Below are positions 7,404-21,934 of a stretch of DNA of 34,452 nucleotides, piece after piece; within the stretch, counting starts at the first letter, position 1, and each line of letters starts with the position of its first letter. Made by a program: the position numbers and the translations under genes. The stretch is from positions 1-34,452 of the IMG/VR virus record IMGVR_UViG_3300020564_000008, one strand, 5' to 3'. The notes below the pieces were generated by a model. The model was not told where the DNA came from, ran no database searches, and was given only the letters and a program-made list of their open reading frames with translations. This DNA comes from a virus.

Positions 7404-7619
7404 ATGTCAGCCAATTATTCGCTAGATAAGAAAGATGTTCTTAATTTAGTAAAGAATGCAGTTTTAGTCGGTGTAGCAGCTATTCTCACCTATGTTGGTG
7501 AAAATTTATCTTCACTAGATTTAGGTGCTAATGGTGTGCTATTAGTTCCTGTCGTTTCAATTGTTATCGACAGTGTAGTTAAGTGGGCTAGGGGCAATGT
7601 AACACAGGAAGTAATGTAA
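7404..7619 (+). CDS. small two-helix membrane protein, putative holin
   Basis: A 71-residue protein with two hydrophobic segments: residues about 15-31 (LVKNAVLVGVAAILTYV) and 43-60 (NGVLLVPVVSIVIDSVVK). A short charged N-terminus and a positively charged tail (KWARGNVTQ) flank them. Size and topology fit a class II holin, which forms inner-membrane holes at the end of infection. No holin family signature can be confirmed by eye. It follows the PAS gene by two bases and overlaps the peptidase start (TAATG), which supports a lysis cassette. It could instead be another small membrane protein. Confidence 0.65.
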   Translation: MSANYSLDKKDVLNLVKNAVLVGVAAILTYVGENLSSLDLGANGVLLVPVVSIVIDSVVKWARGNVTQEVM

Positions 7620-8536
7620 TGTTTAAGACACCCAATGAGCTATTAAAAGCTTACAAAGACGGTTTCAATGGCTCTTGGTGCGATCCAGAGGATGTGGCAA
7701 AACTCTTAGGGGAATTGCCACATCCATTATTTGGAGCCGCAGCATATGGGCTATTTGGTACTGGTGAGGGTAAAGTCGCCCTTCCATTCAAAAATCTATT
7801 AAAATTCGACCCAAAGTTTGGACCCTCAGAACGACAAGTTCAGGGGGATTGTGTTTCCCATGCAACACGTAATAGTGTAGACGTTACACGTAGTTGCGAA
7901 ATAGTCGGTGGTCAGCGAGAAGATTTCGTTGCCCGTGGAGCAACAGAAGCAATTTATGGTTCTCGCGGACACGGCGGCGAAGGTATGAGTTGCTCTGGTG
8001 CTGCTAGGTTTGTTCATCAAACCGGTGGTATTTTACTACGTAAGCAATACAATAAGTACGATTTATCAGAATATAGTGCTATTGGTGGGTCTTGGGGTAG
8101 GGGTGGAGTTCCAGACGATTTAGTAAAAGAAGCCGCAAAGCACCAAGTTAAAACCATCAGTTTAATTAACACTGTTGCTCAAGCAAGAGATGCTTTGGCG
8201 AATGGTTATGCTATTAGTGTGTGTAGTAATGCTGGGTTTAGTTCTCGCAGAGATAAATATGGCATAGCAAAAAGAAGCGGATCTTGGGGCCATGCGATGG
8301 CTTGGGTGGGAATGGACGATTCTCACGAAGTACATAATGAAACACTATTTTTGGTCCAAAATTCTTGGGGCATGTGGAATGGCGGTGAAAAACGCCTTGA
8401 CCAACCAGATGGAAGTTTTTGGATTAGACAAAGCGATGCTGAAGATATGCTCTCGCAAAATGGTTCATGGGTATTTAGTGATGTGGATGGATTCCCACCA
8501 CGAAAGGTTGATTGGACCATTGACGAGGTATTTTAA
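7619..8536 (+). CDS. papain-like (C1-type) cysteine peptidase
   Basis: A 305-residue protein with the papain catalytic triad in order: Cys78 in QVQGDCVSHATRNSV, His225 in SWGHAMAWVGMDD and Asn248 in FLVQNSWG. A Gln just before Cys78 (Gln73 or Gln75) would form the oxyanion hole. GSFWIRQSDAEDM near the end is like the strand before the C-terminus of C1 enzymes. There is no signal peptide or pro-region, so it is made in the cytoplasm in mature form. It directly follows the holin-like gene and precedes the fibre genes. It may therefore be a lytic endopeptidase released through the holin, a virion enzyme that digests surface protein, or a maturation protease. The enzymatic family is well supported; the role is not. 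Confidence 0.88.
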   Translation: MFKTPNELLKAYKDGFNGSWCDPEDVAKLLGELPHPLFGAAAYGLFGTGEGKVALPFKNLLKFDPKFGPSERQVQGDCVSHATRNSVDVTRSCEIVGGQREDFVARGATEAIYGSRGHGGEGMSCSGAARFVHQTGGILLRKQYNKYDLSEYSAIGGSWGRGGVPDDLVKEAAKHQVKTISLINTVAQARDALANGYAISVCSNAGFSSRRDKYGIAKRSGSWGHAMAWVGMDDSHEVHNETLFLVQNSWGMWNGGEKRLDQPDGSFWIRQSDAEDMLSQNGSWVFSDVDGFPPRKVDWTIDEVF

Positions 8537-11500
8537 GTGGCATCACATTATCAGAGTATGTTATTAAGGAGAGGCGAGCTAGCAGAACTAGACGCTTCTA
8601 ATCCTATTCTGGCTTCTGGTGAGCCAGCGTTTGCTGTAGACACAAACACATTAAAAATTGGCAATGGATCAGACGCATGGCAAGATTTAGATAAATTTCT
8701 AACAAGTAGAGATGTTAAAAAATCTATAGTCAACGTAACCGTCCCAAGCATTGCCATAAATCAATCAGTTACACTAATTGTTGATTTTGATGGTGTTAAT
8801 CTAAATGATAAATACGCCGTCTTTGTTTCTCCAGACCAAGAACTACCTAGTGGCTTAGTTATTGGTTATGCTTTCATTAGCAGCGAAAACGAAGTATCTA
8901 TTCAAATAAGAAATACTTCAATAGATTATGTTGACGGTGGACCTAACGATAATTCTGGAAATGCGCAAACATCTTCGCCACTTAGCAATGTGAAGTTCTA
9001 TATCGTTGCGCACCTTGTAGCGTCCACCACCACGACCACAACTACAACAACAACTCTCCCGCCAGTATCAAATTCGGTCTTTGGTTTTGGTTACAATGAA
9101 TTTGGTCAACTGGGCATCAATAATAACATTAGCAAAAATGAGCCAGAACAAATTTATGGAAATCATATTTGGAAAAACTTATCTGCTGGACATTACCACA
9201 GTTTAGGCGTCGATATTGATGATGATCTATATGCTTTTGGTTACAACTATTACGGTCAACTTGGTCTTGGGAATTCTGGAGCAAGTACCAATAGAATAAT
9301 ACCAACTAAAGTATCAATTAACTATATAGGAAACAATGTATGCAGTTCTGGAGCAAAGTGGACAAAAGTTTCTGCTGGTGCATATCATTCTTTAGGAATA
9401 GATTCTGGAAACAAACTTTTCGCTTTTGGTTCCAACGCTTATGGTAGCTTGGGTCTTGGTGATTTAAACGCTCGCATAAAACCAATTATGGTTGGTGAAG
9501 ATATAAATTATTTACGATTATCCAGTGATGAATTCTTTGAAAATAATTGGAATACCCATGCTGATATGTCTATCATAAATGGAGATTATGTTTTATCTGG
9601 CATAAAAAAAGATTACACTGGCGATTCTAAATACGTACTACCAAAAGGAAAATATGTAATTAATGGTATAACACAGGACCACCCCATTGCAATACTTAAC
9701 ACTGATTTATCTAATGTAGCCGCCCCAATATTCAAAAATAATTTAATAGCTTATTCTGGGGATTATTTTGCTGCATCATCTATAGTACTTGGAACAGCCG
9801 GAGATGGTACGTATGATTTTTATTATGGATCTATTTACATAGATGTTAGTGGAGATTATGGCAGTGTAAGCTGGTATGCTTTGCATAGACATCCAGATAT
9901 AATAACTCCTGTATATTTCTCTGGATCATACATGGGCGGTGAAAATTCTTTGAATTATAAAGACCCAAATGCTGGCTGGCAAGATATTTCTGCTGGTAAT
10001 TATCACTCATTGGGTATTAAAAATGGAGAACTATACTCTTTCGGCCACAACACATTTGGTCAATTAGGCAATAGCAGCAATGAGCATAGTGTATCGCCAG
10101 TAAAAGTTGGCACTAAGTCAGATTGGGTAAAAGTTAAGGCTGGCAACTATCATTCATTAGCGCTGGATAGTTCTGGAGCTTTGTGGTCATTTGGCGCTAA
10201 TAATTATGGACAACTTGGGCTTGGCGACAATATTAATCGCAACATCCCAACCAAAGTTAGTGGAGTATGGCAAGCTTTTGAAGATTTTAATTTTAGCAAC
10301 TTATCATCTTCAAGCTCTGTAGGATTTGATGACGAGAAATTCGTTTTCAACTATTCAGCAAATAAACAATACAATTATGAGGATAGATATTTACTATCTA
10401 ATGGTACATATGTCATTAGCGGAGTACCTAGCGGATTGCCAATTGCTATATTAAATGATGGAAAACAAAACCTTATAAGTTACTCTGGCATAAATTATCA
10501 CGGCTCAAAAACAGTAACAGGCACCACAAATAATGGAACATATAATTTTTATTGGGGTAACGTTACTGTAAAAGTTAGCGGGGATTTTGAAAAAGTTAGC
10601 ACATACACCTATAACAGTGGATATATGGGTGGAGAAAATGTATTCTATTACAATAGAACATTAAATTCTTGGAGTGACATGTCTGCCGGTGTAGACTATT
10701 CCATAGCTCTTGATTCAAGTAATAAACTGTGGGCGTTTGGCAAAAATGATCACGGGCAGTTGGGGCTTGGTGACGATTCTCCACGTAGACTCCCAGCAAA
10801 ATTACCACTATCTAATTGGCAAAGCGTAGATGCTGGCGCACATCATGCTCTAGTTGTTAATTCAAGTAAAGAGCTTTGGTCATTTGGTAAAAATAATAAT
10901 GGTCAGCTAGGACTAGGTGATAATGCAGATAGATATGAACCAACAAAAGTAAATAGCGAAATACGCTGGGCTACACCAATTGCTGGTGGTAATCATTCTT
11001 TAGTCACAGTATTTTCATATTATCCATCATCCCCAACAAACATTGTGGTTAAAAATGGCTCCCAAGTTTCAGCCGCAGGATCAAACGAAATAGAAGTATC
11101 TTGGACTCTTAATACGTCTGAAGAAGAAGGCGTTTTAAACTATGTCATAGAATTTTCAACAAATGGCGGCTTAACTTGGAACACAGTAACAAAGCCGACA
11201 TCTATTAATAAGTCATATGTTGTCAAAAACCTAGTTAATAACACCACTAACTATATTTTCAGGGTTGCTGCCATTAATTACATTGGTAGAGGGGCATTTA
11301 GTGTTAATAGTAATACCATTACTGCTGTAGAAGTTGTGGACAACGATTTCTGTAATGTGGTATTCATGTCGCACTTTGATGGAAATAATGATTCTCTATC
11401 ATTCTCTGACTTGTCAAAATATAATTGGACACCAACGAGAGAAGGAATGGTAAAAATATCTACTAATGAAAGTCAATTTGGTGGAGCGAGTGCGGTATTC

Positions 11501-12031
11501 AATGGTATTGCAGGATTAACATTTGGAAGTGGCGTTGAATTTAATATGTCTGGAAATTTCACAATAGAATGCTTCTTTAGGCCCACATCATACAACTTTG
11601 TTAATCCTCAAGCCCTATTGCATGGCGATAAACTATTATCTACAAATAATGCAGAAAATGGCTGGGGGATCTATTCAGACAAGGGAGTGATTAGCGTTAC
11701 CCATAAAGTTAATGGAGCAACCGCAGAAATATTAAGATCCAATATTACTCTCCCGCTACACAGTTGGAGCCATGTTGCTTGGGTGAGAAGTGGCCTTACG
11801 AACTCTCTATATATTAATGGAACTAGACGTTCTCAATCTACATCGTCCAACCCAGCCCCAACATATCACGATACCAAGCTAGATATTGGAACAAGAATTA
11901 GTACGCTTAGTCTAGACCATAGAAATATTTATGGGTATATAGATGAGGCTAGAGTCAGCAAGGTGGCTAGATACACTACCACAAATTACGTTGTACCAAC
12001 CAGATCATTTGGTGTAAATACTTGTAGTTAA
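8537..12031 (+). CDS. fibre/adhesin with seven RCC1 repeats, fibronectin III and LamG-like domains
   Basis: A 1164-residue structural protein with a GTG start right after the peptidase stop. Residues 1-55 (LLRRGELAELDASNP and ASGEPAFAVDTNTLKIGNG) resemble the N-terminal trimer domain of phage Mtd/tail-fibre proteins. A poly-Thr linker follows near residue 164. Residues about 180-820 hold seven RCC1 repeats of the form AG.yHSLgiD ... lyaFG.N.yGQLGlGd, enough for a full seven-bladed propeller. Two related domains are inserted: residues about 324-474 (between repeats 3 and 4) and 578-708 (between repeats 5 and 6). A fibronectin III domain (about 828-934, ending YIFRVAAINYIGRG) and a LamG-like domain (about 942-1164, HSWSHVAWVRSG, LYINGTRR, GYIDEARVSKVARY) complete it. 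Probably a tail fibre or spike that binds host surface glycans or proteins. Confidence 0.85.
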   Translation: MASHYQSMLLRRGELAELDASNPILASGEPAFAVDTNTLKIGNGSDAWQDLDKFLTSRDVKKSIVNVTVPSIAINQSVTLIVDFDGVNLNDKYAVFVSPDQELPSGLVIGYAFISSENEVSIQIRNTSIDYVDGGPNDNSGNAQTSSPLSNVKFYIVAHLVASTTTTTTTTTTLPPVSNSVFGFGYNEFGQLGINNNISKNEPEQIYGNHIWKNLSAGHYHSLGVDIDDDLYAFGYNYYGQLGLGNSGASTNRIIPTKVSINYIGNNVCSSGAKWTKVSAGAYHSLGIDSGNKLFAFGSNAYGSLGLGDLNARIKPIMVGEDINYLRLSSDEFFENNWNTHADMSIINGDYVLSGIKKDYTGDSKYVLPKGKYVINGITQDHPIAILNTDLSNVAAPIFKNNLIAYSGDYFAASSIVLGTAGDGTYDFYYGSIYIDVSGDYGSVSWYALHRHPDIITPVYFSGSYMGGENSLNYKDPNAGWQDISAGNYHSLGIKNGELYSFGHNTFGQLGNSSNEHSVSPVKVGTKSDWVKVKAGNYHSLALDSSGALWSFGANNYGQLGLGDNINRNIPTKVSGVWQAFEDFNFSNLSSSSSVGFDDEKFVFNYSANKQYNYEDRYLLSNGTYVISGVPSGLPIAILNDGKQNLISYSGINYHGSKTVTGTTNNGTYNFYWGNVTVKVSGDFEKVSTYTYNSGYMGGENVFYYNRTLNSWSDMSAGVDYSIALDSSNKLWAFGKNDHGQLGLGDDSPRRLPAKLPLSNWQSVDAGAHHALVVNSSKELWSFGKNNNGQLGLGDNADRYEPTKVNSEIRWATPIAGGNHSLVTVFSYYPSSPTNIVVKNGSQVSAAGSNEIEVSWTLNTSEEEGVLNYVIEFSTNGGLTWNTVTKPTSINKSYVVKNLVNNTTNYIFRVAAINYIGRGAFSVNSNTITAVEVVDNDFCNVVFMSHFDGNNDSLSFSDLSKYNWTPTREGMVKISTNESQFGGASAVFNGIAGLTFGSGVEFNMSGNFTIECFFRPTSYNFVNPQALLHGDKLLSTNNAENGWGIYSDKGVISVTHKVNGATAEILRSNITLPLHSWSHVAWVRSGLTNSLYINGTRRSQSTSSNPAPTYHDTKLDIGTRISTLSLDHRNIYGYIDEARVSKVARYTTTNYVVPTRSFGVNTCS
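9028..9063 (+). repeat. poly-Thr linker tract (ACN repeats), first of nine
   Basis: Near-uninterrupted ACC/ACA/ACG/ACT codons give about ten Thr followed by LPP. It joins the N-terminal attachment part of the fibre to the RCC1 propeller. Confidence 0.85.
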
Positions 12032-12054: not shown

Positions 12055-12375
12055 ATGAGTAGCGCAAAATACCCCAAAATACAATTTAGACGCGCCACAG
12101 AAGCTGAATTTATGTCAGCCGGAACAGTTTTAGCATCTGGCGAACCCGGATGGGCCACAGATTCTAAAGTGCTAAAAGTTGGAAATGGCACATCAACTTG
12201 GGCGTCATTAAGTGGCGTTGGTAGTGCTGGTGGCACCACGGCAAACATGGTACTAAGTACAACAGCTAACATTGCTGGAGCTTCCGGCATAACAAACATC
12301 GTTCAAATAAGCCAAGCTAATTTTAATGCTCTTGGGTCATACAGTCCAAACACCGCATATCTAATTGTAGGTTAA
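12055..12375 (+). CDS. small fibre/attachment protein with Mtd-like N-terminal domain
   Basis: A 106-residue protein. Residues 5-55 (KIQFRRATEAEFMSAG, LASGEPGWATDSKVLKVGNG, STWASLSGVG) are clearly related to the first 55 residues of the 1164-residue fibre, both carrying the RR.t.ae....np.LasGEp.w.tDs..lKvGnG pattern of phage fibre attachment domains. The C-terminal end, NFNALGSYSPNTAYLIVG, looks like a strand pair seen in fibre tips and adaptors. AGGAG (12044-12048) precedes the ATG, and the stop is followed one base later by the next fibre gene. It may be a fibre adaptor or a short fibre; no enzymatic motif is present. Confidence 0.75.
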   Translation: MSSAKYPKIQFRRATEAEFMSAGTVLASGEPGWATDSKVLKVGNGTSTWASLSGVGSAGGTTANMVLSTTANIAGASGITNIVQISQANFNALGSYSPNTAYLIVG

Positions 12376-12376
12376 A

Positions 12377-15300
12377 ATGCCCATTAAATTTGGAAATGTT
12401 GGCATTAGCGGTATAGTTTGCACTAATGCTAGCTCTATTCTGGCAGATATTTCTGGCGTTGCTATTACAAATAGCCTTGGTCAGCTTGTAGGAACTATTA
12501 CCTTACCCAGAAATTTCACTAAACTAAAGTCAGAAGGTTCCAGAATTGTTGGTTTTAATATCACTGGTATTAGAGACGATTTACTAGTACCTTTTACTAA
12601 AAGTACATCTGGCGAAGATCTAACGTTTAATAGATCAGACATTATTGATTTTGTCTCTTACGAACCAGACGGATTAGTGATTGAGAGCAACGAGTATTCA
12701 ATAGATTTAGATTCTAATGAGCCAGTTAATTTTAAGTTCTACTATCCGTTCAATCAAGACAAATTTGCTCCAGATAAAACACTAATCGCTTCTAACATTT
12801 CCTCACTGCTATATTTCCTACAGCAACAAGACGCAGATGCATCTTCCACAATACAAAACGCTTTCAACTTCAATATTAATGATTTTATTAGCCCAAGCGG
12901 CGATGATATTTCTATAGCATCTGGATCAGTCACTCAAGCTATAGAAGCTAGTAAAAGAATTTCTGTTCTTGTTCAAGCAACGACTTCTTCAGTTCAGGGC
13001 GTTAGCGAGCTAGATTGTTTTCAGGCTTTAGCTACCAACGTTGCATCAGAAACAACAGCTAGGTCTGGCGTTCAAACATTCTTTGAAGAAAAATCATCTG
13101 GCATTATTCTTTCTACTATAGCAAGTGCATCTGGCCTAGCTAGTATAGATGAACTACCGCAGGAAATTATTAATCAGACAATTAACCTTGCAGATAACAT
13201 TAACTATATATCTAACAAAGATATTGAAAACTACGATAGAGGAAATGAAATTTCTTCATTGGTTTTAGTACAAAATTTACTACAACAGGGCATTGATCTA
13301 AAAGATAGTAACACGACGGTCGCAAGCACCATTAGTCAACAGGTTGAAACTATAGCTAGTGGCATACTTGGCGAAAATTATGTGCAGAGTTGTGACATAG
13401 TAATTTCTGATGGTAATTCTACCACAACTACAACATCGACTACCACTAGCACAACGACAACAGAGCCAACAACAACCACCACAACGACTGCTGAACCAAC
13501 TACCACAACTACCACAGAAGCTCCAACGACCACAACCACCACAACAACCACCACAACAACAACAACAACAGCCGAACCGACAACCACCACAACGACTGCC
13601 GCTCCCGCGACAATCAATGAAGTTGTAATAACAAGTGTGCCAGCTAGTTTTAGCAACGTTATGGGCTATCCATCAGAATATTCTTTGGTAGGCCAGCATT
13701 TTTGCAGAACGAATAATTCGAATAATTGGTTTAACAGAGGAGTTATAGCACTGATGAATCCTCCTTGGTTTGGAGATGCCTGCACATGCGGCGATAATCC
13801 TAATGATTGTATATTCAGTGGAGAACATAGTTTTGTTTTTACGTCGTGGCCGCACTGGCAGACCGGAGAACCAGACTCGTGGACTGGCTGGCTTTTTTAT
13901 CTCGGCAACGCTCCCGTTGTGTTCAATAACAGTCAAGACTCGACAAACGTGCCGACAACCGGTTGGAAAGATAGTTCTGATGGGATTGGAAATCCAAATG
14001 CAAGTGCGTCCTCTTTTAGTTTGACGGCATCGGGAAGTCCGACAACCACCACAACAACCGCCGCCCCGACAACCACAACCACAACCACCACAACAACCGC
14101 TGAACCAACAACCACTACTACAACAACTGCCGCTCCCGGAGGAGAAACACTCACAGTAAGCGGACTAACAGGAGAACAGTCTGGAGCTAATGGAGTTTAT
14201 GTACAAGCGGGAACATATAATGGAAAGCCGTATTATGCGAAGGGCAGTTATGTTCAAACAACATATGAGCCTTTTGTGAATGGCGAGTATATTATCATTT
14301 GGGGAGCCTTCGGGCCATTGTGGAACTGGTACAACAATGAAACAGGATCTCCAATCGCAACAAATACGAGTAATACCTCAACCCCACCAACAACAGACAA
14401 TCCCGGAACGGATTATTGGTGTTGCCCAGATGGAGATCTTATTGTTACCTCTGGTGGTAGCGCAACAACAACTACCACAACAACAACGGCAGAGCCAACT
14501 ACCACCACCACAACAGTCGCCCCCACAACCACCACCACTACCACAACTACAACAGCAGAACCAACAACCACAACAACTACAACAACAACAGCTTCTCCCG
14601 GTGAAGATCCATATTATCAAAAAGTTGAGCTATTAGCGCATTTTGATTCTGATAATATGAATGGAAGCAATCCAAAAGATAATTCTATTGCTAATAGACA
14701 AATATACATGAACAAAGGCATTATTACAACGTCAGATCATAGCCCAATAGATCCAAATGGTAGCGTCTATTATACTTATGGTGGTAGTTCTCCATTCCCA
14801 TTAATGGCTTATGGAGCCGGTCTTAATGCTGGAACTGGAGATTATACTCTTGAATTCTGGTGGAAGATTATAGATGGAGCAGGATTTCTAACCCACAAAA
14901 CAGAAGGAAATGCTCCGGGAGATCATTGGTTACGAGTTGTAAATAATATAAATGGATCTAAAGCTATTAGTTGCCAATATTTAAATCCATCACCATACCA
15001 ACTAGATACTATTTGGTCTGTATCTATACAGTCTATTGTTAATCAATGGGCGCATGTTGCCATTAGTAGAACATCTGGTCAAACAAAAGTTTTCATTAAT
15101 GGCCAACAGGCTACTCTTGGTATAAGTAATTCAGAAAACCCATTCAGCTTAACGGCGTCTTCTGCGACAGACTCATCTGTAATGGATTTTCCATCAACTA
15201 ATTATGGTGGCAATGATCACATTGCAATGGTTTTCTTTATTGAAGACGGATCTACTCCTATACAGGCTTATGTTGATGATTTAAGATATACTGTTGGAAT

Positions 15301-16414
15301 TGGTAGATATAATGATAGTTTTACAGCGCCAACATTGCCTTTTGCAAATAGTGGACCAATCATTGCTCCAAATGCACCAACTAATTTATCAGCAACCGCT
15401 GGAAATCAACAAGTTTCACTTTCTTGGACTGCCCCATTAAGAAATGGTGGAGCTAGCATAACAGATTATGCAGTTCAATACTCAAGTGATAATGGTAACA
15501 CATGGACAACATTTAGTGATGGAACTAGTTCAAGTACTTCAGCTACAGTTACTGGATTAACAAATGCTACAGCTTACAAGTTCAGGGTAGCAGCAATTAA
15601 TTCTGCCGGAACTGGTCAATATACATCCGCAGTAGATGCTGTGCCAAATGAAGCAATAACAATTACAACTCAACCACTAAATGATTATGGAACAACTGGT
15701 AGTCAGAATGTAACCCTAAGTGTTACAGCGTCTGGTGGCGGTGGAAGCTTGGTATATCAATGGCAGTATTTCGGACCAAATTACGACATTGGCGAATACG
15801 ACTACCTCTGGCGCAACATCCCCGGAGCAACCTCGTCTTCGTACACGACCAATGGCAACACAATGTCAGGCTCCAATTTGCTCAGTTATGATTTTTATTA
15901 CGCTGGAAGTGCAAAACTTCGTTGCGCTATTTCTCCAGCTAGCGGTGGCTCGCCAACATACACAGATATTGTACGCTTTCTTCAGTTGGACATTCTTCAC
16001 TCTCCATATATTTACTGGGAAGGCAATCAGGGCAATTATCCCAATTATGGACAACCACAGACATTTGTCCCTGCTAGCGGAGAAAATCTGATACTCAACT
16101 TATCCGATTACGGAATGTCAAGTCCAGACGTATCTTGGTACACAGGCAATGATAAAACCATTAAAGTACAAGTTGCTACCACTGGACATACAGACAGTGC
16201 CGATTGGACTGATTTGTACACAGTTGACCAACGCCAGTATTTATACTTATATGGTCATGCAATTACGCCATCCACAGGCACAAAATATTACCGTGCCATC
16301 GTCGTTCATAAATGGCCCTACACGGTCAACAACAGCACACAATCCGCTACATACGCAACGCCATATACTTGGCCGCGTTATGCGTATGATGTAGTACAAG
16401 TTACATGGCCATAA
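12377..16414 (+). CDS. giant modular fibre/adhesin (1345 aa) with LamG-like, fibronectin III and Ig-like domains
   Basis: The largest protein in the window. Residues about 1-345 form an N-terminal part not related to the other fibres (starts MPIKFGNVGISGIVCTNASS) with long helical stretches. Three poly-Thr linkers (13420-13612, 14035-14140, 14461-14600) separate two small beta-rich modules: one with many Trp and Cys (13620-14030) and one of the NGvY...W type (14146-14455). Then come a LamG-like domain (about 14610-15350, YTLEFWWKI, WAHVAISRTSGQTKVFINGQ, AYVDDLRYTVGIGRY), a fibronectin III domain (about 15370-15650, APTNLSATAGNQQVSLSW) and an Ig-like domain (about 15655-15990, LVYQWQYFG). The C-terminal 140 residues are unassigned and Tyr/Trp-rich. 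Likely a host-binding fibre. The middle and end are GC-richer than the start. Confidence 0.82.
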   Translation: MPIKFGNVGISGIVCTNASSILADISGVAITNSLGQLVGTITLPRNFTKLKSEGSRIVGFNITGIRDDLLVPFTKSTSGEDLTFNRSDIIDFVSYEPDGLVIESNEYSIDLDSNEPVNFKFYYPFNQDKFAPDKTLIASNISSLLYFLQQQDADASSTIQNAFNFNINDFISPSGDDISIASGSVTQAIEASKRISVLVQATTSSVQGVSELDCFQALATNVASETTARSGVQTFFEEKSSGIILSTIASASGLASIDELPQEIINQTINLADNINYISNKDIENYDRGNEISSLVLVQNLLQQGIDLKDSNTTVASTISQQVETIASGILGENYVQSCDIVISDGNSTTTTTSTTTSTTTTEPTTTTTTTAEPTTTTTTEAPTTTTTTTTTTTTTTTAEPTTTTTTAAPATINEVVITSVPASFSNVMGYPSEYSLVGQHFCRTNNSNNWFNRGVIALMNPPWFGDACTCGDNPNDCIFSGEHSFVFTSWPHWQTGEPDSWTGWLFYLGNAPVVFNNSQDSTNVPTTGWKDSSDGIGNPNASASSFSLTASGSPTTTTTTAAPTTTTTTTTTTAEPTTTTTTTAAPGGETLTVSGLTGEQSGANGVYVQAGTYNGKPYYAKGSYVQTTYEPFVNGEYIIIWGAFGPLWNWYNNETGSPIATNTSNTSTPPTTDNPGTDYWCCPDGDLIVTSGGSATTTTTTTTAEPTTTTTTVAPTTTTTTTTTTAEPTTTTTTTTTASPGEDPYYQKVELLAHFDSDNMNGSNPKDNSIANRQIYMNKGIITTSDHSPIDPNGSVYYTYGGSSPFPLMAYGAGLNAGTGDYTLEFWWKIIDGAGFLTHKTEGNAPGDHWLRVVNNINGSKAISCQYLNPSPYQLDTIWSVSIQSIVNQWAHVAISRTSGQTKVFINGQQATLGISNSENPFSLTASSATDSSVMDFPSTNYGGNDHIAMVFFIEDGSTPIQAYVDDLRYTVGIGRYNDSFTAPTLPFANSGPIIAPNAPTNLSATAGNQQVSLSWTAPLRNGGASITDYAVQYSSDNGNTWTTFSDGTSSSTSATVTGLTNATAYKFRVAAINSAGTGQYTSAVDAVPNEAITITTQPLNDYGTTGSQNVTLSVTASGGGGSLVYQWQYFGPNYDIGEYDYLWRNIPGATSSSYTTNGNTMSGSNLLSYDFYYAGSAKLRCAISPASGGSPTYTDIVRFLQLDILHSPYIYWEGNQGNYPNYGQPQTFVPASGENLILNLSDYGMSSPDVSWYTGNDKTIKVQVATTGHTDSADWTDLYTVDQRQYLYLYGHAITPSTGTKYYRAIVVHKWPYTVNNSTQSATYATPYTWPRYAYDVVQVTWP
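13420..13612 (+). repeat. poly-Thr linker tract
   Basis: About 190 bases of ACN codons broken by Glu-Pro, Ala-Pro and Ser, for example TAEPTTTT and TEAPTTTT. It is the longest of the nine tracts. The complementary strand gives a poly-Val open frame that is an artefact. Confidence 0.9.
14035..14140 (+). repeat. poly-Thr linker tract
   Basis: ACN codons with AAP and AEP interruptions link the Trp/Cys-rich module to the NGvY-type module of the 1345-residue fibre. Confidence 0.88.
14461..14600 (+). repeat. poly-Thr linker tract
   Basis: ACN codons with AEP, VAP and ASP interruptions lie directly before the LamG-like domain of the 1345-residue fibre. Confidence 0.88.
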
Positions 16415-16696: not shown

Positions 16697-18985
<2,289 letters not shown>

Positions 18986-19003
18986 CTCATTAAGAAATAA
19001 AAC

Positions 19004-21934
19004 ATGTCAACATCAGACGTAGTAATAAATATAGTCCCAAATAAAGATGAAGTTGCTAATAACAACGTTGTGGTAACTTGTCAAAAAACTGGTGCTTATA
19101 AAACCGTAGACAATACGGCCAATAAGAAGCCAGAAACAGTGCGGGCTATAGAATTAGATTATACTGACCGTTTTAATAAGAAACGTCCAAGTTTTGGTAT
19201 AGTGCCAACAGTGGCCGCTTTACCAACAACAACAACCACAACCACAACAACTACCACAACAACGCCGGAACCAAACTGTGCTAATTCAATTGCCAGCGTT
19301 AGAATGATGGGATGGTATGCTGGTGATCGAATTCTTTCTCCCATTGGATATGCTCCATATGGACGAGAAACTTATGTCTATGGAGACGAAGTGGTTCGAT
19401 ATGAAACAGGTGTGTGGCTTTATATTAATGCTGGGGCAGAGATTGTTAGAGCATATAGTGATGCAGAACGGCCTTGGTTAGTAGATTGGCCTTCTCCTTA
19501 TGCTGCTGAGAAAATTTGTGATCCTACGGTAACAACAACAACCACTACCACTACAACTACTACCCTTCCACCAAATCCATTTCTTTATGGCCTAGATGTT
19601 GATGGGAGCATATTCGAAATTGACGTAGTAAATAAATCATTTAATATGATAGATAGATCTCCAACTGAAACACGATTACCTTATAGACAATTAAATTCTA
19701 ATGGTATATCGTATGACCCAGTAAGAGATCACATATTTTACTTTTCTAAAGTTACGGACGCCACTGGCGCAATTGATCCACTCTACACAGCTTTTTACCA
19801 TGTAGACAACAAAGGCGTTAAGAGCTTGATGTTATCAACAACAAAATACGCAGGATCAATACCTCAATGTGCCGCTTATTACAATAATGCTCTATGGATA
19901 TTTGATCCAACAAATCCCGGAATAATACACAAGTGGAATTTAAACTATTCAAGAGAAATTCCATTTTTGGGAAATGCAGATTTAACAGAGTACACCATAA
20001 ATGTCAACTTTACATCAGAGATCAACCCGGAAGGCGAAAATCTATTAAATGAAGTAAACGACGTAGCTATCGATTTTAATACAGGCATAATGTATGGCGT
20101 TACAGTAGCTGTGAATGGTGGAATATTTTTCTCAATTAATCTTAACAATCCATCAAATACATTTACCGTTATACGAGAGTTTGACGGGCCTTCTAGTGAA
20201 ACATTTTCCCCCGGTGGATATACTATTCCTCAATTAGCATTTAACACAAATTATAGCACACTATATTTTCACGTATATGACACTGGTGTGTGGTTCACAA
20301 TAGACAAAACAAATGGAAATATAACACCTTTAAACTTTACTTCAATGCTTAGTTCAAGGCTTGGTAATAAAGGTTTTATAGATATAGCTGGAGCCAGACC
20401 ATTATCAAGAATACCATCTGGTAGTTATACTTTACAGCCTTGGGAACTCACAGTAGAAACAACTAGCATAAATCAAAACTTTAGTCTTGGTTTCATTGGA
20501 ACTGACATTGATATGAATATAGATTGGGGAGATGGTGTGGTAGAGCGATCTAAATTTGTTTTTTTTCAAAATAACCAGCGTAGAACTATAGGAGCGAGTC
20601 ATACATACGCCAATGCTGGAACTTATACAGTTAAAATCAAAGGCAATCTTGGAACTGATGGGACGATTTTAGTAAGTGGTACTAACCAAGCTAAAGCAAG
20701 ACTTAAATCAGTTGGGGTTATACCAATAATCCCCGGTTTATCAAACTTTAGGGAAATGTTCCGAGGATGTACCGGTTTAACAAATCTTCCAGAAAATCTA
20801 TTTGTAAACTATCCAGATCTAAATAAAAACGTGTTTGATAGCACATTTGCTAGCTGCTCTGGTCTTACATCCATTCCTGCAAATCTATTTAAAAACCAGA
20901 TTAATCTTGGCAAGTCTGCTTTTTATGCAACGTTTAATAATTGCACGGGCTTAACAAGCATCCCAGAAAATCTATTTAGATATAACACATCTGTTGGATC
21001 AGCATCTTTCAATTCTACTTTTTCAGGATGCACATCTTTAAGTAGTATTCCAGCAGACATTTTTAGATATAACACGGGCGTAGATAGCTTATCATTCGTT
21101 GGAGTGTTTGATAAAGTAACAATTCCAACATCTACATATAATGGCATATTGGCATCATTAAATACATATCTTGGATCAAAAACTGGTATGAAATTTAATG
21201 CTGGTAATTCAAAAAGTAGCGGAAGCGGAACTACCGCTAGAGACGCCTTGGTATCAAACAGGTGGACAATTCTAGATGGTTCAGACTTGGTGTTACATTT
21301 AGATTCACAAAACTCAAATAGCTATGCAGGGTCTGGCATAGTGTGGAATGACCTCAGTGGATTCAACAACAACGCCAAGCTAATTAATGGTGCATACTAT
21401 AATGGTCAACACATGATATTCGATGGCAGCAATGATTATGCAGAAGTTTTACACAATGCTTACCTTAATGACTGCTTGAATTCAAATTTTACATTTGATA
21501 TATGGGTATTTATGAATAATCCACAAATAAGACCGTTTGGTAAAATTATTTCTAAAGGGGGATATTTTGCTCCCGGTTTTAATGGTATCAGCTTGGCAAC
21601 AAATAACAGTGTTGTTTCAGCATTTTGGCAATACAGAACTTCAACCGGTTCAGTTTCTACGCTGCTTGGAACAAGCTTGACTTCTAATGGTTGGACCAAC
21701 CTTGTTTACACAAGATCAAATGGCGTGTTGTCGCTATATAAAAACGGACAATTTGTTAGTTCCGTCAATAATACGTATGATTTAAGATCTAACTATAACT
21801 TGAGAATAGGATCAAATTATCAACCCGACAATCAATCAAAACAAAAAGTTGCAGTTTTAAAACAATATAGAACAAGTCTTACATCATCAGAAATATTGGC
21901 AAACTATAATGCGCTCTCAAGCAGATTCGTGTAA
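19004..21934 (+). CDS. modular fibre/adhesin (976 aa) with propeller-like, PKD-like, BspA-like and LamG-like domains
   Basis: A 976-residue fibre-like protein. Residues 1-65 (SDVVINIVPNKDEVANN, CQKTGAYKTVDNTANK, ELDYTDRF) match the separate 72-residue protein just downstream. Two poly-Thr linkers (19209-19264, 19530-19566) flank a small Trp/Tyr-rich module. Then comes a region of about 280 residues rich in repeated strands (LYGLDVDGSIFEIDVV, VAIDFNTGIMYGVT) that looks like a propeller. A PKD-like domain has IDWGDG and SHTYANAGTYTVKIKG. About four BspA-like leucine-rich repeats follow, of the form F..CtgLtsIPenLF (20740-21110). A C-terminal LamG-like domain has VWNDLSG, MIFDGSNDYAEV and LSLYKNGQFVSSV. 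The upstream ribosome site is weak (AAGAAATAAAAC). Likely host-surface binding. Confidence 0.82.
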   Translation: MSTSDVVINIVPNKDEVANNNVVVTCQKTGAYKTVDNTANKKPETVRAIELDYTDRFNKKRPSFGIVPTVAALPTTTTTTTTTTTTTPEPNCANSIASVRMMGWYAGDRILSPIGYAPYGRETYVYGDEVVRYETGVWLYINAGAEIVRAYSDAERPWLVDWPSPYAAEKICDPTVTTTTTTTTTTTLPPNPFLYGLDVDGSIFEIDVVNKSFNMIDRSPTETRLPYRQLNSNGISYDPVRDHIFYFSKVTDATGAIDPLYTAFYHVDNKGVKSLMLSTTKYAGSIPQCAAYYNNALWIFDPTNPGIIHKWNLNYSREIPFLGNADLTEYTINVNFTSEINPEGENLLNEVNDVAIDFNTGIMYGVTVAVNGGIFFSINLNNPSNTFTVIREFDGPSSETFSPGGYTIPQLAFNTNYSTLYFHVYDTGVWFTIDKTNGNITPLNFTSMLSSRLGNKGFIDIAGARPLSRIPSGSYTLQPWELTVETTSINQNFSLGFIGTDIDMNIDWGDGVVERSKFVFFQNNQRRTIGASHTYANAGTYTVKIKGNLGTDGTILVSGTNQAKARLKSVGVIPIIPGLSNFREMFRGCTGLTNLPENLFVNYPDLNKNVFDSTFASCSGLTSIPANLFKNQINLGKSAFYATFNNCTGLTSIPENLFRYNTSVGSASFNSTFSGCTSLSSIPADIFRYNTGVDSLSFVGVFDKVTIPTSTYNGILASLNTYLGSKTGMKFNAGNSKSSGSGTTARDALVSNRWTILDGSDLVLHLDSQNSNSYAGSGIVWNDLSGFNNNAKLINGAYYNGQHMIFDGSNDYAEVLHNAYLNDCLNSNFTFDIWVFMNNPQIRPFGKIISKGGYFAPGFNGISLATNNSVVSAFWQYRTSTGSVSTLLGTSLTSNGWTNLVYTRSNGVLSLYKNGQFVSSVNNTYDLRSNYNLRIGSNYQPDNQSKQKVAVLKQYRTSLTSSEILANYNALSSRFV
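19209..19264 (+). repeat. poly-Thr linker tract
   Basis: About 13 Thr codons after LP and before PEP separate the N-terminal attachment module from a small Trp-rich module. Confidence 0.88.
19530..19566 (+). repeat. poly-Thr linker tract, last of nine
   Basis: About 12 Thr codons followed by LPP, directly before the propeller-like part of the 976-residue fibre. The LPP end resembles that of the first tract in the RCC1 fibre. Confidence 0.88.

Follow-up and report, generated by a model that had tools for sequence, protein, structure and literature searches.

A predicted seven-bladed RCC1 propeller carrying two related, probably cupredoxin-like inserts in a putative phage tail fibre

The window analysed here is a viral contig of 34,452 bases, from which end repeats are absent. 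Its genes include those for a sigma factor-like protein, a glycosyltransferase, ribonucleotide reductase, dUTPase, PhoH, a UvsX-like recombinase and a DnaB-like helicase, a set that fits a T4-like aquatic phage. On the plus strand, a papain-like (C1) cysteine peptidase gene (7619–8536), assigned from conserved motifs, synteny and a PF00112 match just below the cut-off (E = 9e-4), is followed directly by the gene of interest (8537–12031), a single frame with a GTG start that encodes a tail-fibre-like protein of 1164 amino acids. The protein begins with an Mtd_N domain (PF18454, residues 10–46, 8564–8674, E = 4.7e-10), the N-terminal domain of Mtd_N phage receptor-binding proteins, and a run of ten threonines (9026–9055) links this N-terminal region to a central block of RCC1 repeats. 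The earlier note had the feature end at 11030; the frame in fact continues to 12031 through a fibronectin type III (fn3) domain (residues 843–926, 11063–11314, PF00041 E = 1.2e-7) and a LamG/concanavalin-like lectin domain (residues 994–1145, 11516–11971, PF13385 E = 2.9e-14). PHROGs matches of the N terminus are to proteins of the tail spike, tail fibre and minor tail classes, and those of the central part are to three phage RCC1 families. The Mtd_N domain and the tail PHROGs point to the fibre being a virion protein.

Seven matches to the RCC1 profile PF00415 lie in the window, starting at 9074, 9218, 9413, 10022, 10172, 10724 and 10871, with E values from 7e-15 to 6e-5; each lies within about 12 bases of a repeat proposed in the earlier note. 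Six of the seven matches are above the curated cut-off, and the one at 9413–9484 falls below it because insert A cuts that repeat. In order, the repeats span 9077–9229 (repeat 1; PF00415 at 9074–9205, E = 2.7e-10), 9230–9418 (repeat 2, with a longer loop at the site equivalent to that of the inserts; E = 1.3e-12), 9419–10033 (repeat 3, interrupted by insert A; E = 5.8e-5), 10034–10183 (repeat 4; E = 6.6e-15), 10184–10729 (repeat 5, interrupted by insert B; PF00415 at 10172–10264, E = 4.6e-12), 10730–10876 (repeat 6; E = 2.2e-12) and 10877–11020 (repeat 7, delimited from PF00415 and the predicted structure, in which its last strands would close the ring with repeat 1). Over the whole protein, the scores are far beyond chance (PF00415, E = 5.5e-71; PF25390, the RCC1-like domain, E = 2e-79). 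The AG..HSL-type segments with which the repeats were said to be paired are also seven in number, at residues 216, 279, 485, 534, 716, 765 and 815.

A structure was predicted with AlphaFold2 for residues 178–830, using ten sequences. The model has a mean pLDDT of 82.5 and a pTM of 0.73. In most stretches of the propeller pLDDT exceeds 90; confidence is poor for insert A (pLDDT ∼40–85) and better for insert B (∼55–93). Foldseek matched the model to RCC1-like structures with E = 3e-29, and superposition gave Z scores of 53 for HERC2 RLD2 (rmsd 1.5 Å, 352 of 370 residues), 49.5 for UVR8 and 47 for human RCC1. Across these three superpositions 336–356 residues were aligned, beginning with the first residues of the model and reaching almost to its end. 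Since the superposition covers whole RCC1 domains of seven blades, the predicted ring closes. The order of strands fits closure between the first (model residues 4–8 and 23–28) and the last (632–639 and 643–651), in line with the earlier suggestion that the final segment pairs with the first repeat. Thus, the prediction supports a fibre that carries a closed seven-bladed RCC1 propeller from which two inserted domains project. The fibre shares with human RCC1, UVR8 and HERC2 RLD2 (PF00415/PF25390) the seven repeats, the closed ring and ∼27% identity over 350 aligned residues; unlike them, it has additional domains of 130–150 residues in repeats 3 and 5 and stands in the context of a phage fibre, for which the eukaryotic partners of RCC1 (Ran, nucleosomes) are not expected.

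The earlier note described RCC1 repeats as best known from eukaryotic and some bacterial proteins, and their use as a phage receptor-binding platform as unusual. That the repeats themselves are unusual in phages is not supported. They occur in three PHROGs families (7220, 16766 and 4219), in isolate phages including those of Clostridioides, Brevibacillus and Synechococcus, and in dozens of viral contigs in one scan, often as exactly seven repeats; that scan yielded many proteins with seven repeats, besides some arrays of great length. The jumbo phage phAPEC6 encodes eleven RCC1-like proteins (PMC7247149). RCC1 propellers are therefore common in phages, and the unusual part here is the pairing of one with two related domains, probably cupredoxin-like, at fixed sites; none of the other viral RCC1 loci that we read has such inserts or the N-terminal region of the fibre. 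A keyword search of titles and abstracts, with few subscription journals or preprints covered, found neither RCC1 receptor-binding proteins of phages nor a description of cupredoxin domains in phage tails. One candidate for a further RCC1 protein with insertions, L147, was set aside, as its gaps appear to be divergent repeats. Other RCC1 arrays noticed are two single frames of more than 5500 residues (L116, 1–16815; L133, 1–16599) with 64–65 RCC1 repeats, stretches of which resemble the fn3/LamG part of the fibre, and one viral contig (L087, 3521–12200) with about nine consecutive RCC1-repeat ORFs, several of them with seven repeats.

PHROGs names these families 'regulator of chromosome condensation' and lists them under DNA, RNA and nucleotide metabolism, and a DNA-ordering function has been proposed for phAPEC6 (PMC7247149), so that the protein might be thought to work inside the cell or on phage DNA. 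The present protein, however, starts with Mtd_N and ends with fn3 and lectin-like domains, and more LamG/fn3 genes lie downstream of it; we consider an intracellular or DNA-related role very improbable in this case.

The two interruptions, noted earlier as gaps of about 130–150 residues, are inserts of ∼153 residues (insert A, residues 326–478, 9512–9970) and 130 residues (insert B, residues 580–709, 10274–10663). The two are homologues of one another (39% identity, E = 1e-16), and neither matches any Pfam entry, even when matches up to E = 10 are admitted. Both this homology and the probable cupredoxin-like nature of the inserts had been missed in the earlier note. Repeats 3 and 5 are interrupted at the same point, after the P.KV strand and before the W..vsAG strand, and the same site carries a longer loop in repeat 2 and, in the related loci L009, L010 and L081, also in repeat 4. 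By general propeller topology, such a loop runs from a blade's outer strand to the inner strand of the blade that follows, and both inserts should therefore leave from one face, two blades or ∼103 degrees apart.

A search of the viral contigs with the single fibre protein gave no relatives, and alignments were needed: a scan with a two-sequence alignment of the inserts, then iterated profile searches on the loci so obtained and the window, gave 99 copies in 70 viral loci. The majority are in other proteins that lack RCC1 repeats; some of these proteins also match LamG, the crAss muzzle C-terminal domain or, weakly, DUF2460. The family has one conserved histidine and, near its end, the motif C-x2-H-x2-M. 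On these sequence profiles it is a widespread phage domain without a Pfam entry. Searching isolate phages by tblastn with either insert or a canonical copy found none, and two conserved patterns found no relative in bacterial genome contigs, although cellular copies may exist.

The fold of the family was examined with a model of the canonical copy L049, built from 47 sequences (pLDDT 95.2, pTM 0.88). Foldseek against the PDB gave no single significant match (best E = 0.08), but the leading matches are mostly copper proteins (CueO, laccases, nitrite and nitrous oxide reductases, amicyanin), the remainder being mainly antibody-type sandwiches. In VIA-align, nitrite reductase, laccase and rusticyanin scored Z = 6.0–6.7, and the SO1698 protein shared the top score; values below 8 may reflect merely a common arrangement. 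Matches among viral structures include H6WFV3 of S-TIM5 and proteins of MED4-213 and P-SSM2, and some are annotated as YHYH proteins. YHYH (PF14240), a domain of marine phage tail proteins that was predicted to be a metal-dependent hydrolase (PMC7824862), is often joined to lectin-like domains in tail proteins of aquatic phages (PMC7824862, PMC7029224); the putative receptor-binding proteins of pelagimyophages and cyanomyophages are reported to include YHYH domains as well as domains of the concanavalin and major-tropism-determinant types (PMC7029224). The YHYH profile itself gave no match to the inserts, even at E = 10.

A bridge to known copper proteins is provided by the cyanophages. The sequence profile of the family singled out, weakly (E = 0.03), an S-TIM5 ORF that equals H6WFV3 in length (486 codons including the stop) and in which the domain reads HPI...YYYCVNHSLMGG. 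This domain matched the insert profile with E = 2.7e-5, with HPI and C..H..MGG in register, a value to be read in the light of the comparison of the insert profile with a three-sequence cyanophage set, which aligned the C..H..M segment alone (probability 7.6). The counterparts in large ORFs of P-SSM2 and MED4-213 have Copper-bind matches that are just under the cut-off or weak. Plastocyanin-like domains with H...C-x2-H-x2-M lie inside these large ORFs (L160, P-SSM2 record positions 225520–225720; L159, MED4-213 record positions 18472–18564), and separate short ORFs of P-SSM2 and S-TIM5 give strong Copper-bind matches. A profile of the three cyanophage domains found plastocyanin, auracyanin, rusticyanin and amicyanin among PDB sequences, whereas the insert-family profile, like a single cyanophage domain, gave only chance matches there. 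The plastocyanin-like domains of these structural proteins share with the insert family HP, C-x2-H-x2-M and a similar predicted fold; the insert family differs from them as a separate branch ending in HGYMGGEN, whose propeller-borne copies have mostly lost the ligands. As the PDB matches are individually weak, the assignment rests on the agreement of matches, motif and cyanophage bridge. The insert domains are thus likely to be cupredoxin-like, which no one test settles.

A type-1 copper site has the ligand set H, C, H, M, and at these positions insert A of the window has H-A-G-M and insert B L-T-S-M. Of 54 distinct free-standing copies, 45 keep all four positions, as do three of the ten second inserts known (those of L009, L010 and L079), but none of the ten first inserts does, for which reason the copies in the window are probably without metal. 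The spacing in the intact copies is that of amicyanin-type sites, and these copies would be the basis for seeing the inserts as metal sites that take part in entry, the fibre having them as redox or metal-dependent lobes. With the set so seldom kept on propellers and gone from both inserts of the window, we consider that improbable as an account of this protein.

In a tree whose root is not fixed, all A copies are split from all B copies (support 92/91), and a recent duplication of a blade with its insert was accordingly rejected. The B copies group with the free-standing copies; given this and the split, two acquisitions and one old duplication are both possible.

Phage homologues with the same two insertions were sought and found. 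The layout is common to ten phages (the window, L008, L009, L010, L011, L025, L029, L040, L079 and L081), in all of which the order is Mtd_N, a linker that is threonine-rich in most (the run is lost in L025), the propeller with its two inserts at unchanged sites, fn3 and the LamG-like domain. Identity to the window is 35–74% over the full length (seven of the nine others) and 37–77% over the propeller with its inserts (all nine). A profile of the N-terminal region matches these ten loci only, and among the loci compared there is no relative with a matching N terminus but without the inserts. Mean pairwise identity is lowest for insert A (0.30) and LamG (0.31), compared with 0.44 for insert B and 0.43–0.53 for most blades.

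We favour, with a probability of roughly 0.7, the reading that this is a receptor-binding tail-fibre or baseplate protein of an aquatic T4-like phage that uses the RCC1 wheel as a platform. The Mtd_N region would anchor the fibre to the virion and be followed by the threonine-rich linker; the closed seven-bladed wheel would form a rigid platform; the two homologous cupredoxin-like sandwiches would project on one face from the inter-blade loops of repeats 3 and 5; and the fn3 and LamG-like domains would continue from the point of ring closure. Insert A and the LamG tip, which change fast, would contact the host surface, their geometry being fixed by the wheel; host binding by the fibre is inferred. 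With the type-1 ligand set lost, the inserts of the window would act as binding scaffolds instead of copper sites.

The conservation of insert B, however, is close to that of the propeller, the domain occurs also in the other phage proteins mentioned above (some with crAss muzzle C-terminal, weak DUF2460 or LamG matches), and YMGGEN-type residues are often retained where the ligands are gone. These observations would suit inserts that are structural or assembly domains, serving in trimerisation or in packing on neighbouring fibre or baseplate proteins, with the LamG tip alone binding the host. The quicker change of insert A could, moreover, be relaxed constraint and not host-driven selection. 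Against a structural role stand the rank of insert A among the fastest-changing parts and the attachment of both inserts at loops of a complete propeller, and we judge this the less likely account, although one to be taken seriously.

Going beyond the receptor-binding platform that we prefer, the protein may belong to a previously undescribed receptor-binding class, in which an RCC1 wheel bears two cupredoxin-like lobes derived from copper-binding tail domains of aquatic phages, with a complete type-1 site kept in L009, L010 and L079 and a metal-free binding surface in others; we offer this fuller picture tentatively, as possible but open to considerable doubt. A fibre of this kind would show how an adhesin of aquatic phages can arise when members of one mobile domain family are grafted into a closed propeller and the ring stays unbroken. 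For a widespread phage domain missing from Pfam, the analysis also gives a sequence-level definition and a probable link to the copper-protein fold. It makes testable the existence of functional copper sites on phage fibres, and whether phage RCC1 proteins are adhesins or have the DNA-related roles that their database names imply.

The surroundings of the fibre gene are unevenly conserved. Upstream, gene order is identical in all ten phages, and the peptidase gene abuts or overlaps the fibre start in each; its product is far more conserved than the fibre (69–95% identical), with the motifs GDCVSH, HAM and NSWG conserved wherever read, and might act in fibre maturation, lysis or entry. The downstream genes are far more variable. 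Immediately after the fibre, a 106-residue ORF (12055–12375) with its own Mtd_N and a Phage_tail_C motif resembles the fibre N terminus, and pieces of it recur in related loci. It is followed by an adhesin-like ORF (12377–16414) with several long threonine runs, the first 344 residues of which are 84% identical in L078 while the remainder differs, a pattern that suggests tip swapping. Two more large ORFs with LamG-like domains (16697–21934) are likewise 84–85% identical to L078 over their first ∼70 residues, with more variable remainders.
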